Shown: positions 3,159 to 15,651 of the stretch, in pieces
Layout: the number at the start of each line of letters is the position of its first letter
Numbering within the stretch: position 1 is the first letter of the stretch
Virus record (IMG/VR): IMGVR_UViG_3300045135_000550
Span: 1 to 38,211 of that record
Strand: one strand, 5' to 3'
Source of the DNA: a virus
DNA length: 38,211 nucleotides
Translations under genes and position numbers: made by a program
The notes under the pieces: model-generated
The model's input: the letters and a program-made list of their open reading frames with translations, nothing else
What the model was told of the DNA's origin: nothing
The model's database searches: none

Positions 3159-4754
3159 CTATCTCCTACCTGCGGGGGTATAATTAATATATAAACCATT
3201 TATTGAGTAAGGCGCTTTGTTATCTTCACTATAAATTCGGAAACTTACTGTATCCCCGCTTCCTTCTATAGCATTTCTAGATGTTGGATCTAAAGACCCT
3301 CCAAATGTAGCGTCACCAAACTCTGATTGCCCAAAAATTGCAGGGTACCTGATACCATAAATTAAATAATCTTCAGGTTGAGGGATAGCTCCATCTTCGT
3401 AGTTATATCGAACACGTAAATAAGGACTGATGGTACCTTCTGGCCCAAAAGATATTTTAGCGTATTTAAGAGTTTTTAAAGTTCCTGCATCCCCAAAGTC
3501 TAAATTAGGTGTTTTGTAATAAGCATTAATAGTTTGTTCTGCACCATCTTGATAAAAGTAATTACCAGTGTCATGCAAATAAATATAACCTAAATTATCA
3601 CCATGATAAGTTTTTTCTTCGCCTGAGTCATCAAACTCAGAACTAATGGCAGGTGCTTGTACGCCTTTTATCTGTGACCACTCAAATCCATTCGCTGTTA
3701 AAGTTCCTACAAGCCCGAACGAAGCATTAATATCAGAACCAGAACCTGTATAAAATAATCTATATTGAGATCTACTACGCAATACTACGCTGCTAATTTT
3801 ATAATCTGAAATGTTTTCTGTTACATTAGCAACTAAAGACTGCACCTGACGAGATACAGATCCTAATTCAACATCTCCAATCCTTGCAGTGGCAGCAACA
3901 AGCCTAAGTCCATCAGGAGCGAGGAATAGAATGTCTCCTGCAATTTCCTGAATACTATAACCGCTGAGGCATCCCACGTTGTTGGTAATTTGGATAACTG
4001 CTGTGTTTGCGGCATCATTAATATTATCTAATCTATGGATTGTGTTTTCACAGAAAATAAACAAAGAACCACGGAAACTTTTTATTCCGGTTATTCTATC
4101 CGCAATAGTTACTGAACCTGATCCTGTTCCTGTAAAACTTCTATCGTCATTTGTTGCACTATAATAAACAGTACTTGGGTCATTAGTTGTATCTACAATA
4201 CAAAGGTGTCTATCTAATAGCTCAACATATTGGCCTGCGGCAGGTGTTGAAATTTCTTCGTATACAAATTTACGATTTGACCCTACGCCGTCAATATGAA
4301 AGTGTGCAACAGCATCAGCGCCTGTAGCTATAGTTAAAGAGCCATAAGAACTATCAGTATGCCCAGTAGGGGCCCTCATGATAACAAACTGAGCTTGGTC
4401 TTGGTTAGGCCTGTCTAGTGTTGTTAAGGCTGCTAAGTCTGCTTCTAGAGATCCATTATGCCCTGTATGTTTATTTATCTGTAACCAACTAGTACCTGTT
4501 TCAGAATAATAAATACTAGTCCCTACACAGACTACAACTCCTAACGCATAAGGAATAACACCATGTACTGTAGAATTATTTTCTGGACGAGTTGTCCCAT
4601 ACGGCGCATAGCCATTTATTCTCCTATAACCTCCATCAGGATGAACCTCAAAGTTTAAAAGCTCTTTAGCCACGCCGGGCTGTTGGAGCATATCAAACTC
4701 GTTTAAGTTGGTGTTTAAGCCACCCTTACACGAAAATCCAAAAGGCTGAGACAT
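3159..4754 (-). CDS. Tail structural protein (P22 gp10-like/tail tubular position)
   Basis: 531 residues, beginning MSQPFGFSCKGGLNTNLNEF. The sequence is rich in beta strands with repeated short blades and aromatic ends, for example YRRINGYAPYG and SFRGSLFIFCENTIHRL. This fits the beta-propeller-like tail protein that follows the adaptor in podoviruses (P22 gp10 or T7 gp12 position). It lies between the adaptor gene and the fibre genes and shares a base with the adaptor stop at 4754. The assignment comes mainly from position and general composition; no catalytic motif is visible. Confidence 0.6.
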   Translation of the reverse strand: MSQPFGFSCKGGLNTNLNEFDMLQQPGVAKELLNFEVHPDGGYRRINGYAPYGTTRPENNSTVHGVIPYALGVVVCVGTSIYYSETGTSWLQINKHTGHNGSLEADLAALTTLDRPNQDQAQFVIMRAPTGHTDSSYGSLTIATGADAVAHFHIDGVGSNRKFVYEEISTPAAGQYVELLDRHLCIVDTTNDPSTVYYSATNDDRSFTGTGSGSVTIADRITGIKSFRGSLFIFCENTIHRLDNINDAANTAVIQITNNVGCLSGYSIQEIAGDILFLAPDGLRLVAATARIGDVELGSVSRQVQSLVANVTENISDYKISSVVLRSRSQYRLFYTGSGSDINASFGLVGTLTANGFEWSQIKGVQAPAISSEFDDSGEEKTYHGDNLGYIYLHDTGNYFYQDGAEQTINAYYKTPNLDFGDAGTLKTLKYAKISFGPEGTISPYLRVRYNYEDGAIPQPEDYLIYGIRYPAIFGQSEFGDATFGGSLDPTSRNAIEGSGDTVSFRIYSEDNKAPYSINGLYINYTPAGRR

Positions 4755-12704: not shown

Positions 12705-12918
12705 CTTTGTCTATTATCTTCTTTAGTCCAACATGACTGAGAGTACGACCAGTAGAGAAGGATAACCACTCTGCCCCATCTCTTAGTGAGAGGGCTTTAG
12801 ATTTTACTAGATCTTTAATGTGTTCTAGTTCTTCCTGCTCTTCTGGTACTGGCTCCAAGTAATGAGGGTCTTTGGAGAGTTTATAGCCAAAAGGTATTGT
12901 GCTGCTAGTTCGCCTCAT
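12658..12918 (-). CDS. Small protein between terminase subunits
   Basis: 86 residues from the ATG at 12918, preceded by AAGG. A longer reading from 12951 lies inside the terminase small-subunit gene and is less likely. The sequence starts MRRTSSTIPFGYKLSKDPHY, followed by an acidic helix and RDGAEWLSFSTGRTLSHVGL, which looks like a helix-turn-helix. Similar small proteins sit next to terminases in marine phages. It may help in DNA recognition during packaging. Function is inferred from position only. It overlaps both terminase genes. Confidence 0.65.
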   Translation of the reverse strand: MRRTSSTIPFGYKLSKDPHYLEPVPEEQEELEHIKDLVKSKALSLRDGAEWLSFSTGRTLSHVGLKKIIDKDARRLAEAPRELSNE

Positions 12919-13285
12919 AAGTAGCCTTAGCGGGTATAATGAATAACCCACCAGTTACATTGTTATTAACTTCTAGCTTATCTTGTTTCCCTAGGCCTGT
13001 GCGGTCTAGAATTGTTTGGGCTGCTTGTAGTCGAATATTAGCCTGAGGAATAGGTGCATCTGAGTGCATTACCTCTACAAGCTTCATTGCGGCTTGAGGT
13101 GCTGATTGTGCTAAGATGTTAGAGGCTAAATCGATTATTTCATGTTTGAGGGATTTGACAACTTGCCAATGACTATTCTCAGCATAACCTGCAAGCTCAG
13201 CGGCTTTCTTAGGATCACCTCCCGTTTCGACTAGTGCGTCCAAGAAACTCTGCTGCTTGATTGTAAGTTCTTTTTTGTTGCTCAT
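12905..13285 (-). CDS. terS: Terminase small subunit-like protein
   Basis: 126 residues. The N-terminal LTIKQQSFLDALVETGGDPKKAAELAGY is characteristic of the DNA-binding helix-turn-helix of small terminases. It is followed by a helical oligomerisation region (SAPQAAMKLVEVMHS, ANIRLQAAQTILDRTGL). It is the first gene of the late operon, in front of the large terminase. Its ATG lies only about 8 bases past the -10 box of a perfect leftward promoter, so the message would be leaderless or nearly so. The next in-frame ATG is far inside the protein (residue 67). Confidence 0.8.
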   Translation of the reverse strand: MSNKKELTIKQQSFLDALVETGGDPKKAAELAGYAENSHWQVVKSLKHEIIDLASNILAQSAPQAAMKLVEVMHSDAPIPQANIRLQAAQTILDRTGLGKQDKLEVNNNVTGGLFIIPAKATYEAN

Positions 13286-13292
13286 GTTAGGT

Positions 13293-13321
13293 ATTATAAC
13301 AACTATTTAACAGTTTGTCAA
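13293..13321 (-). promoter_or_regulatory. Perfect-consensus sigma70 promoter for the late operon
   Basis: On the minus strand, TTGACA (plus-strand TGTCAA at 13316-13321), a 17-base spacer and TATAAT (plus-strand ATTATA at 13293-13298) match the bacterial housekeeping consensus exactly. The expected start of transcription is about 13285-13287, at the terS start codon. A consensus promoter on late genes needs some form of timing control; the inverted repeat covering the -35 box is a candidate operator. Confidence 0.85.
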
Positions 13322-13353
13322 GTACTTTTTGAAACTAATTAATACTTGACAAA
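13314..13353. promoter_or_regulatory. Inverted repeat covering both -35 boxes (candidate operator)
   Basis: TTTGTCAAGTA at 13314-13324 and TACTTGACAAA at 13343-13353 are perfect 11-bp inverted copies separated by 18 bases of AT-rich DNA. Each arm contains the -35 hexamer of one of the two divergent promoters. Part of the symmetry is forced by the two -35 boxes, but AGTA/TACT extends it by four to five base pairs. A dimeric regulator bound here could control both promoters together. Confidence 0.55.
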
Positions 13354-13374
13354 TGGTGAATTTACCTGTATAAT
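13346..13374 (+). promoter_or_regulatory. Perfect-consensus sigma70 promoter for the early region
   Basis: TTGACA at 13346-13351, 17-base spacer, TATAAT at 13369-13374. The predicted start is near 13381-13383, where the RNA would begin with a GACCC/GGGTC stem. It would transcribe about 900 bases of non-coding DNA before the first early gene at 14290. Confidence 0.85.
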
Positions 13375-13382
13375 ACTCTTGA

Positions 13383-13923
13383 GACCCCCCGGGTCACATA
13401 TAGATAATAGTAAGGTAACAGTAAGACCTTTCTTTAAAGATCTTTAAAGATCTCAATCACCCCGCCTAAGTCTTTTAAATACCCGCCCTAACTGCTTTAC
13501 AGTCTTAAACGGACTAGTTACGCACCGAGAGATTCCACCGCCTAGACTTGTTAACACTCTAAAGTCCTCCAAAATGTATGAGCATTAGTATATATACTAG
13601 GGGGACCCCCATGGCCTCCTGCCCCCTCCCTAGTCTTAATAAGACTAGGGAGACTTTAGAGCCTAGACTAAAGTCTAGCCAGTTCTTGGGAGGCCTCTAA
13701 AGACTCAAGAGTCTTTAGAGATCTTTGAGGCCTCAGAGACTCCTAAGCTCGTAGAGCTTCCTCTCAAGTTTACATAGACTCGTAGAGTCTAAAGAGCCTC
13801 TAGAGTAAAACTCTAGAGACCCTTGAAACTAATAGTTTCAAGAACCTACAGCATTAACCTCCTTCCTCCTAAACTCTCTAGAGAGTTTAAAGAAAACTCT
13901 AGAGATCTAAAAAGATCTCTAGA
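13383..13923. repeat. Array of perfect hairpins/palindromes in the control region
   Basis: About eleven short perfect inverted repeats in 540 bp: 13383-13395, 13432-13449, 13626-13652 (13-bp arms), 13663-13678, 13695-13720 (12-bp arms), 13745-13759, 13775-13791, 13798-13818, 13822-13842, 13871-13888 and 13898-13923 (11-bp arms). From 13626 on they are close-packed, and most have loops of 1-4 bases. They reuse words such as CTCTAGAG, AGACTC, AAAGATCT and CTCGTAGAG. The symmetry acts equally on DNA and on RNA from either strand. No run of T follows most of them, so they are not ordinary terminators. The non-coding stretch 13286-14289 holds no credible ORF. Confidence 0.8.
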
Positions 13924-13957
13924 AATCTCCTCGTTTTAGTCCTCCTCCTCGTGCGTC

Positions 13958-14205
13958 TTTCACAACCGCATTATGCTCAGGGAAAGAGCTTGACCAAGAC
14001 CACCGCCGATGCTACTCGCGTTGTTTCACAACCGCATAATGCGCAGGGAAACGGCTTGACAGCTTCCGGCTCAAAATGCTATGCGCCGTGTTTCACAACC
14101 GCATAATGCGCAGGGAAACCGTTGACAGCAGCAACTCGATGGTGTTAGTCACGCCGCTACGCTCGCTCTTTCACAACCGCATAATGCGCAGGGAAAGCAG
14201 TTGAC
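13958..14205 (+). repeat. Four 28-bp repeats, each followed by TTGAC
   Basis: Copies at 13958-13985, 14024-14051, 14091-14118 and 14169-14196. Copies 2-4 are identical; copy 1 differs at two positions. Each starts TTTCACAACC, has CGCATAATGCG as a perfect inner palindrome and ends CAGGGAAA. Four bases after each (three after the third) comes TTGAC (13990, 14056, 14122, 14201), giving spacings of 66, 66 and 79. Weak -10-like hexamers lie 17-18 bases further on, the best being TTTAAT at 14225. The array may be a set of tandem promoters with an operator each, or replication-origin iterons. It directly precedes the first early gene. Confidence 0.8.
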
Positions 14206-14289
14206 GGCAAATCGACCCTGTGCCTTTAATGGAAACCGTCACCGAAACGGCGACACCAAAAATCACATCACATCACAAAGGTACATAAC

Positions 14290-14892
14290 ATGGCTACATA
14301 TAACACTCCTGCAACAGCAATCGCCTCAAGCAAGCAAATTTGGGCAGTCAGCAACAAGTTCACCTCTATGTTCATAGAGGCCAATGAGATTCCTCGGGTC
14401 AAGTGGAAAATTGTGTCTAAGCGTATATTTGCCACCCTGATGCATACAAATCCCGATGGGATTACTCATGGCAAAATCCAAGAGTACTTCGCCGCCACCG
14501 AGCTACCGAAGGTAATCATCGGGCTAGTTAAGGCTGACGGCCTCAAGGATGAGCCTAAAGCTGCTAAAGCAGCCCCCAAGAAGAAAGCACCTGCTAAAGC
14601 AGCACCCAAGGCTAAAGCACCTGCTAAAGCAGCTCCCAAGCCTAAGGCAGCTAAGTTGCACAAGAGCATAGCAGATTATCTGGAGTCAGGCTTAATATCT
14701 CCGAAGGAGGCTCAGCAAATCCAGAAAGAGTTTGAAACTACTGGCAAGCTGCCTTTTCCTAAGGATGAGCCTAAAGCTCAAGGCACAGAGGCTCGACTGA
14801 CCTTCCTCGAAGAGACAGCAGTCTTACAGATGCAGAAGATTGAATCCATCGAAGATGGCCTTGCACAAATCCTCCTCGCTGTCCGAGGCTAA
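14290..14892 (+). CDS. First early gene: histone H1-like Lys/Ala/Pro-rich protein
   Basis: 200 residues. Residues 1-80 form a mixed domain I do not recognise (IWAVSNKFTSMFIEANEIPR, LMHTNPDGITHGKIQEYF). Residues 90-124 are a tract of AKAAPK/KAPAKAAPK repeats like the tails of histone H1 or bacterial H1-like proteins, which bind DNA or RNA without sequence preference. Residues 125-155 (IADYLESGLISPKEAQQIQK) are a short helical hairpin. Residues 165-198 are a likely coiled coil. It has AAAGG 8 bases before the ATG and is first after the repeat array. It may coat phage DNA or perturb the host nucleoid; this is inference. Confidence 0.8.
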   Translation: MATYNTPATAIASSKQIWAVSNKFTSMFIEANEIPRVKWKIVSKRIFATLMHTNPDGITHGKIQEYFAATELPKVIIGLVKADGLKDEPKAAKAAPKKKAPAKAAPKAKAPAKAAPKPKAAKLHKSIADYLESGLISPKEAQQIQKEFETTGKLPFPKDEPKAQGTEARLTFLEETAVLQMQKIESIEDGLAQILLAVRG

Positions 14893-14901
14893 CTGTTAAC
14901 T

Positions 14902-14917
14902 GCCCCCTTCGGGGGGC
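14902..14917 (+). terminator. GC hairpin after the first early gene
   Basis: GCCCCC, loop TTCG, GGGGGC, starting 10 bases after the stop of the H1-like gene. There is no proper T run after it (TTC only). It may be a weak terminator, or an RNA 3'-end stabiliser that lowers expression of the genes that follow. Confidence 0.5.
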
Positions 14918-14935
14918 TTCACTGGAGTTTTAAAT

Positions 14936-15175
14936 ATGAATAATACTACCGCAGTTACACTGCCAGTTTGGGCTATAGAGTTATTAACTGAAGGCCATGA
15001 GCCAGATAGTTTAGAAGATCTAATGACTATTCAAACTTGGATGCATAATTTAATAGATAAGCATACTCATCTTGGTTTCGAGCCTTGGCCTTTTGAAGGC
15101 CCATTCTTCTCAGACTTTAATGATCTTAATGATCAGCCCGGTTTCTGCTGCAAGATTAGATTTAGTCATCCTTAA
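14936..15175 (+). CDS. Hypothetical early protein (79 aa)
   Basis: Acidic, aromatic-rich product with TLPVWAIELLTEGHEPDSLE, then a FEPWPFEGPFFSDFNDLNDQ segment. The ribosome site GGAG lies 9 bases upstream. I do not recognise it. It opens a run of small co-directional genes with short spacers, the usual home of host-takeover proteins in lytic phages. Confidence 0.65.
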   Translation: MNNTTAVTLPVWAIELLTEGHEPDSLEDLMTIQTWMHNLIDKHTHLGFEPWPFEGPFFSDFNDLNDQPGFCCKIRFSHP

Positions 15176-15186
15176 GAGGTTTCAGA

Positions 15187-15360
15187 ATGTTTCAAGTATT
15201 AAAATATAAACTCAACCCGTTCTGGACTTTGGTTTATAAGCAGGATTACTTGGTTAATTCGCCTTACAAGATTACATATACTGGCAAGTTTAAAGTGGGC
15301 ATCAGTCTACCTACCGGAAGACACAGCCACAGTTACTATGTATTTCAAAAAGTTAAATAA
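15187..15360 (+). CDS. Hypothetical small basic protein (57 aa)
   Basis: Frame from ATG 15187 to TAA 15360, with AGAGGT 5-6 bases before the start. Begins MFQVLKYKLNPFWTLVYKQD and contains ITYTGKFKVGISLPTGRHSH. Rich in Lys, Tyr and beta-forming residues, with no membrane segment. No family recognised. It fills an otherwise empty gap in a tightly packed operon, which supports it being real. Confidence 0.6.
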   Translation: MFQVLKYKLNPFWTLVYKQDYLVNSPYKITYTGKFKVGISLPTGRHSHSYYVFQKVK

Positions 15361-15377
15361 ACCAAAAGGAAACGAAA

Positions 15378-15605
15378 ATGTCAGCTCCCAAGTTAAATTT
15401 TAAAATCAAAGAAAATAGCAAAACAGTTTGGGTTGATAATTCTACACTCGACTCAGAGTCTAAAATATCAGCCATAAAGGTATTTCAAATCAAAAAGCAC
15501 TCTATAGTTTCCAAAATTGAAGCAATAGGTAATGCTAGTTTAACTACACTTACTTTTGAGCTAAAGACAGGTGAAGTACAAGAAGTACAGCTATTTGAGA
15601 ATTAA
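15378..15605 (+). CDS. Hypothetical small protein (75 aa)
   Basis: Begins MSAPKLNFKIKENSKTVWVD. Predicted mostly beta, with alternating charged and hydrophobic residues, ending LKTGEVQEVQLFEN. Ribosome site AAAAGGAAA upstream. Unrecognised. A strong hairpin follows its stop at 15625. Confidence 0.6.
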   Translation: MSAPKLNFKIKENSKTVWVDNSTLDSESKISAIKVFQIKKHSIVSKIEAIGNASLTTLTFELKTGEVQEVQLFEN

Positions 15606-15624: not shown

Positions 15625-15651
15625 TAGCCCTTACAGGAAGTGTAAGGGCTA
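15625..15651 (+). terminator. Perfect 11-bp hairpin in an intergenic gap
   Basis: TAGCCCTTACA, loop GGAAG, TGTAAGGGCTA. The 111-base gap 15606-15716 holds this and a GC-rich stretch (AAAGGCCGCCGTCGAG) unlike the AT-rich surroundings. No T run follows, so it may be an RNA processing or stability element rather than a terminator. Confidence 0.5.

Follow-up and report, generated by a model that had tools for sequence, protein, structure and literature searches.

A non-coding leader crowded with perfect hairpins raises the question of whether such structures act in RNA, in DNA or not at all. The leader in question lies at positions 13383-13923 of a 38,211-base IMG/VR virus record, which was analysed over its whole length and is referred to here as the window. 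The source is an HMO-2011-type podovirus that belongs to an uncultured marine phage group. The best GenBank relatives of its TerL are the Pelagibacter phages HTVC115P, HTVC103P and HTVC104P (66-67%), followed by Roseobacter and Puniceispirillum phages of the HMO-2011 type. An initial annotation of the locus had counted about eleven hairpins and had considered a structured ncRNA or long leader, a recombination or packaging site and cruciform-type origin DNA.

The hairpin array and its conserved surroundings

Leftward genes are late genes including the terminase, rightward genes from 14290 onwards are early and replication genes, and the interval that separates the terminase small subunit gene (12905-13285) from 14290 has no predicted gene. 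Two perfect sigma-70-type promoters diverge in this interval, one reading leftwards (13321-13293) and one rightwards (13346-13374), and the turn in gene direction coincides with a turn of the GC skew near 14-15 kb. Both GC and AT skew switch sign near ~14000, close to the leader, and again near ~31000, together with gene direction. The leader transcript from ~13381 is predicted, and statements on RNA from this region are predictions likewise. The elements of the locus are as follows; inverted repeats are given without a strand.

12905-13285, minus strand: terminase small subunit gene (PHROG match to this subunit, E 2e-6), adjacent to the core motif in almost every contig that bears the motif
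13293-13321, minus strand: perfect sigma-70-type promoter (TTGACA-17-TATAAT, with TG) for the terminase/late side, 12/12, pattern match only
13346-13374, plus strand: perfect sigma-70-type promoter of the leader (TTGACA-17-TATAAT), 12/12, pattern match only
13383-13395, plus strand: stem-loop GACCC-CCC-GGGTC at the 5' end of the predicted transcript; most leaders keep its position, and G-U pairs are common
13431-13450: hairpin, arm 10, loop 0 (inverted-repeat search)
13491-13501, plus strand: directional word ACTGCTTTACA (boxA-like), from strand bias across 233 leaders
13546-13623, plus strand: core, consisting of ACTTGTTAACA, ~18 nt, TGTAT, 5 free bases, TTAGTATATATA, a G/C run and GGCCTCCTGCC (motif-found contigs)
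13586-13599: palindrome TAGTATATATACTA inside the core (inverted-repeat search)
13626-13652: hairpin, arm 13, loop 1 (inverted-repeat search)
13663-13678: hairpin, arm 7, loop 2; the loop is AA in the window and TT in L006-L010
13695-13720: hairpin, arm 12, loop 2 (inverted-repeat search)
13745-13759: hairpin, arm 6, loop 3 (AAGCTC-GTA-GAGCTT), read from the sequence
13765-13774, plus strand: second directional conserved word CAAGTTTACA (element 2), aligned in 40 leaders
13775-13791: hairpin, arm 7, loop 3 (inverted-repeat search)
13798-13818: hairpin, arm 9, loop 3 (inverted-repeat search)
13822-13842: hairpin, arm 10, loop 1 (inverted-repeat search)
13870-13889: palindrome, arm 10, loop 0 (inverted-repeat search)
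13898-13923: hairpin, arm 11, loop 4 (inverted-repeat search)
14201-14230, plus strand: promoter-like TTGACG-18-TTTAAT directly 5' of the partner gene, read from the sequence
14290-14892, plus strand: partner gene orf1 (200 aa), the first gene past the array, from family alignment and co-occurrence with hairpin-rich leaders

Perfect inverted repeats were counted without overlap, with arms of at least 7 and loops of at most 8. By this count, 13383-13923 holds 10, compared with a mean of 0.58 (maximum 3 in 300) in its dinucleotide shuffles; outside the array, no 541-base tile of the window exceeds 2. Eight perfect repeats with arms of at least 9 were found in the 38 kb, seven of them within 13383-13923. 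The sole other one (15625-15651, arm 11, loop 5) is located between two early genes. The dense battery described by the initial annotation is confirmed by these counts, which reach about twelve when the 5-bp stem at 13383-13395 and the 6-bp stem at 13745-13759 are included. The reuse of the words CTCTAGAG, AGACTC and AAAGATCT and the richness in CTAG are equally real, and the described position holds as well, with a promoter matching at 12/12 before the non-coding leader and early genes after it. An assembly artefact, which had been considered, can be dismissed, as the hairpins recur in close relatives sampled in several other metagenomes. The folding z-scores of the region are -7.3 for the plus strand and -6.9 for the minus strand.

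Relatives were collected by a terminase scan and a scan for the conserved core motif, which yielded about 200 loci. In nearly all contigs that bear the core motif and are long enough, it sits a few hundred nucleotides from the TerS start and points the same way; the leader is therefore regarded as a conserved non-coding region specific to this lineage. The constant features of the leader are the 5' stem-loop just past the promoter, the core and directional words of the form CT[AG][GC]TT[TAG]ACA, a class found 191 times on the plus and 2 times on the minus strand of 233 leaders and 7 times in 830 kb outside leaders. The stem that had been expected at the very 5' end of the RNA (13383-13395) is conserved in position, often contains G-U pairs and is more stable as plus-strand RNA (p 0.004). 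Together with the hairpin at 13586-13599, it belongs to a 5' region that is conserved separately. The isolates HTVC104P, HTVC115P and HTVC033P carry short versions of the leader without the array. In HTVC115P (L203), a terminator-like inverted repeat and, after it, seven T lie at ~4709-4738, between the leader start and the core.

Several other readings of the leader were examined. The core was rejected as a second sigma-70 promoter: a -35-like TTRACA stands 17-18 nt before TGTAT, but a -10 consensus is lacking, and second copies of the word come without TGTAT. In the putative tiny conserved ORF ATGTATnnnnnTTAG, five bases vary freely in content but not in length. The directional word has no excess of pairing partners of its own inside the leader, and RNAalifold returned only a weak helix for the 5' domain of 92 leaders, from a noisy alignment. 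Intrinsic terminators were discarded, since the array hairpins lack T tracts on the plus strand; no tRNA or known RNA was detected in the region; and N4-type hairpin promoters are a possible reading, for which the 1941-aa protein gave no RNA polymerase match.

Downstream of the array lie four tandem copies of TTTCACAACCGCATAATGCGCAGGGAAA (13958-13985, 14024-14051, 14091-14118 and 14169-14196; spacing 66, 67 and 78), each with a TTGAC a few bases downstream and flanked by bases that vary pairwise (C...G or G...C). Six copies are present in L013 and none in L016, and the repeats look like a putative duplicated promoter-proximal operator. The string ATGCGCAGG at 14181-14189, within the tandem repeat, also occurs in the conserved stretch right after boxA in the rrn leaders L333, L338, L350 and L355, and this sharing with some alphaproteobacterial rrn leaders may be due to chance. 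The promoter-like sequence at 14201-14230, absent from the output of the sigma-70 consensus scan, has a counterpart in L041 and L038 (TTGACAG...TYTAATGGAA).

Evolution of stems and loops

Compensatory change, which had been put forward at the outset as a test of the stems, is frequent in the array. Kept orthologous hairpins show 120 compensatory Watson-Crick pairs, 60 of them transversions, versus 81 one-sided changes (counts collapsed by local sequence and not by branch, from overlapping sequence pairs that are not fully independent). The one-sided changes of this enlarged set comprise 16 G-U, 22 A-C and 43 others. Further sets gave G-U to A-C ratios of 25:39 (all pairs), 8:16 (kept hairpins) and 12:24 (outgroup-defined), and a small second set gave 8 to 5; these ratios may shift somewhat given that leaders hold more C than G. 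For this reason, the claim is limited to the absence of a G-U excess and does not extend to a preference for the other strand. The SAR11 16S rRNA, used as a control with comparable code and arms of at least 6, showed 35 G-U, 10 A-C, 11 other and 88 double changes, a result that depends on the cut-off, as arms of at least 5 gave 58 to 71 through dilution by short chance hairpins.

Of the 61 multi-base loop changes between close relatives, 12 replaced the loop by its exact reverse complement, against a null mean of 3.1 and a maximum of 10 in 1000; this excess is clear yet small in number and comes from pairwise events that are not fully independent. Examples are the flip from AA to TT in the pair L014/L050 (99.6% identical) and from TTT to AAA in L100/L157 (99.8% identical), and in L076/L374 and L100/L201 the loop inverts along with a change in the stem. 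Beyond a length of 4, loops become sharply less common. The substitution rate in outgroup-defined stems is 0.010, with 0.073 in the adjacent spacer and 0.147 in loops; a looser version of the estimate gave 0.029, 0.078 and 0.176, respectively. This outgroup-based estimate replaced an initial one that was biased by the choice of hairpins. Since the stem rate lies far below those of spacer and loop, stems must be constrained beyond mere repair of pairing.

The absent G-U excess and the loop inversions point to hairpins that are both formed and repaired in DNA by template switching. Marks of template switching in DNA replication have been described for hairpins in RNA genes (Monttinen and Loytynoja, 2022; PMC8794818). 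The array shares with these its perfect stems, one-step compensatory changes, loop inversion and the combination of inversion with stem change. Unlike the RNA-gene cases, in which such marks are rare, those of the array are frequent and confined to a single phage leader zone beside the partner gene. Both signatures of the process, a compensatory excess that includes transversions and exact loop inversion, are present in the array. Because the changes fit template switching at the DNA level, the covariation of the array is not evidence for an RNA fold. Of the structured ncRNA or long leader that had been proposed, the non-coding leader and its 5' stem stand, but an ncRNA is not established for the array, in which the G-U excess of an RNA helix is missing and loops invert; cruciform-type DNA fits the array better.

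Distribution of the array and its link to orf1

The number of hairpins per leader is bimodal: among 233 distinct leaders, 121 have 0-1, 17 have 2-3 and 95 have 4-12. Hairpins with arms of at least 8 cluster within 1.5 kb of the terminase start, and late genes have almost none. Poor leaders are not merely short, because the non-coding length is alike in rich and poor leaders (725 and 772 nt), with hairpin densities of 5.0 versus 0.25 per 500 nt. The rich state requires 17 changes on the TerS tree, sisters with near-identical terminases differ in hairpin state (for instance L038 and L042), and rich and poor sisters seem to swap the block from the core onwards. In L080, the first early gene is packed with perfect short hairpins about every 25 nt, ~640-1060 nt past the TerS start, such as CGAATCCAAAGGATTCG, and at least one of these in-gene hairpins has been maintained through a compensatory substitution that replaces an amino acid in comparison with L102.

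The link between the array and orf1 was absent from the earlier sequence-only reading. A first screen took the gene families of the first 5 kb that occur in 8 or more genomes and compared rich with poor phages. It revealed the orf1 family, which 44 of 48 rich genomes carry, as do 3 of 35 poor ones (Fisher 3e-15). The association was retested because it had emerged from a screen of gene families. A profile of the N-terminal domain detected orf1 in 78/83 rich versus 16/90 poor leaders (Fisher 1.7e-26), the exceptions being the 16 poor phages with the gene and five rich ones without it. Greedy matching at a TerS identity of at least 75% gave 31 rich/poor pairs, of which 24 differ in orf1 as expected and 1 in the reverse direction; the six closest pairs (94-98% TerS identity) all agree with the expected direction. 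A gene-ascertained sample, which partly overlaps the earlier one (38 of 58 leaders are new), showed at least 2 hairpins in the 700 nt upstream of orf1 in 55 of 56 distinct loci, with a mean of 4.9 upstream of the gene versus 0.14 at 1.2-1.9 kb past its start. All of these loci have a TerS relative nearby, and the core motif as written is present in only 6. The dose relation is steep, orf1 being present in 58/58 leaders with at least 6 hairpins and 11/66 with none, and the linkage persists across very divergent orf1 sequences. The array and orf1 co-occur beyond shared ancestry. Two orf1-family copies were seen in L080 (3268-3531 and 4323-4835) and in L188 (2995-3258 and 3649-4167), one copy consisting only of the N-terminal domain (87 aa).

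Outside the close clade of the window protein, members of the orf1 family are only 17-49% identical to it. The family alignment reveals an N-terminal domain of ~85 residues with conserved KQ, THGxxQxxF and P, followed by a linker rich in Lys, Pro and Ala; most members also have a coiled coil at the C-terminus. In the AlphaFold2 model, the N-terminal domain is helical and confidently predicted (pLDDT 91-95, residues 11-70), the linker is disordered and helices lie at the end. No Pfam family at cut-off, no PHROG transposase match and no fold match at E <=0.001 in the PDB or the viral library were obtained; the best fold-search score, VIA Z 5.0 (TrmJ), is given no interpretation, and nucleic-acid binding finds no supporting fold match. 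A helix-turn-helix-like pair at residues 60-79 is our own putative reading of the model.

A proposed hairpin-plus-protein module and its alternatives

We infer that the array and orf1 constitute one hairpin-plus-protein module of the early leader. The best overall explanation, to which we assign a probability of about one half, is a two-part module in which the orf1 protein would act on the hairpins in the control of the early region or at an origin. The hairpins would form in DNA and be copied by template switching, and the orf1 protein, with its predicted helical domain, basic linker and coiled coil, would bind them as an oligomer, probably as extruded or single-stranded DNA. The bound protein would set the state of the divergent promoter and early region, either by controlling early transcription, including that of orf1 itself, or by marking a replication origin. 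Selection by the protein would hold stems nearly invariant inside each clade, leaving loops to drift and flip, and would explain the near-absence of stems where the gene is absent. Early control is favoured as the probable process over replication start and packaging, because orf1 lies directly behind the array and the promoter-like sequence. This two-part module is the simplest account of the bimodality, the stem constraint, the free loops, the absent G-U excess and the gene linkage. More tentative, at somewhat below even odds, is the fuller proposal that hairpin shape and not sequence is read on DNA by the module's own oligomeric protein, with non-identical hairpins renewed by template switching and the whole present or absent as a unit.

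A possible but rather unlikely alternative is a structured leader or ncRNA, in which the transcript from ~13381 would fold into the hairpins and the RNA fold would be selected, for example as a leader that orf1 reads in its own regulation, as a means of stabilising an early mRNA or as a large ornate RNA. The directional conserved words and the 5' stem, with its G-U pairs and plus-strand preference, look like RNA signals and speak against a module of DNA only; the strong plus-strand z-score and the slightly better plus-strand folding in 13 of 16 rich leaders also agree with an RNA fold. The two strands nevertheless fold almost equally well, array hairpins are if anything more stable as minus-strand RNA (maybe a composition effect), loops flip freely, the G-U to A-C ratio is below 1 in four analyses against 3.5 in the 16S control, and no Rfam match at gathering score was found in 12900-15400. 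It is improbable that the array is a functionless mutational by-product, with palindromes made by template switching in a zone that is often single-stranded (R-loop or origin) and orf1 riding in the same cassette. Such a by-product is hard to reconcile with a hairpin count that is bimodal and not gradual, with poor leaders of the same length and place that are almost hairpin-free, with stems that evolve ~7 times slower than the adjacent spacer and with an orf1 link kept over very divergent sequences, even though the template-switch signatures (as in PMC8794818), the spill of hairpins into the first early gene of L080 and the cassette-like exchange near the core would all suit it. Since the array and orf1 are adjacent and the block is seemingly exchanged from the core, their association may be partly linkage in one cassette. 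Cassette exchange near the core could produce joint gain and loss mechanically, but leaves the lasting pairing over large divergence unexplained.

Antitermination of the rrn type, in which boxA-type words would recruit NusB/S10 and hairpins would keep Rho off untranslated RNA, is very improbable. The words CT[AG][GC]TT[TAG]ACA, almost strictly in one orientation, agree at their fixed positions with the alphaproteobacterial rrn boxA GCTCTTTGACA and with the boxA consensus GCTCTTTRACA, and L069 has TGTGTGG at boxC distance. Position 5, however, is T in the rrn boxA sites seen and G or C in the phage words, SAR11 rrn leaders lack such a word, and the reading accounts for the words and not for the array or orf1. 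The boxA resemblance is a possible clue to the leader scaffold, as distinct from the array.

The proposed module can be compared with known systems. Baculovirus homologous regions are arrays of palindromes (hr) bound by IE-1, and they resemble the array in joining palindromes with an early protein. This is a works-like comparison with no claim of sequence relation, and hr palindromes share one sequence whereas the array hairpins each differ. REP/BIME palindromes are clustered hairpins linked to RAYT transposases and are likewise tied to one gene, but the array hairpins are not copies of one element (286 distinct 5' arms, with the commonest 6-mer in 34), and orf1 has no transposase-family match. 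The rrn boxA/boxC antitermination leaders share with the phage leader its place behind a promoter and its directional boxA-like words; they differ at boxA position 5 and have no counterpart of the array and orf1. GOLLD and ROOL, large ornate RNAs, are stem-rich non-coding regions of several hundred nucleotides, some of them in phages (PMC12286853). The array likewise spans several hundred stem-rich nucleotides but differs in having neither an Rfam match nor RNA-type covariation. No copy of the array-type leader or of orf1 was detectable in GenBank phage records, and no description of a module of hairpin array and gene was found in the literature, which suggests that the hairpin-plus-protein module is previously undescribed.

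The leader zone is a natural test bed for template switching, as loop flips and one-step compensatory changes are common and can be tracked between near-identical phages. It also carries a warning: a leader may covary strongly without any RNA structure behind it. If the module is true, a widespread marine phage group uses structure in place of sequence for signalling in cis, and the reader of that signal would be the first gene past the early leader.
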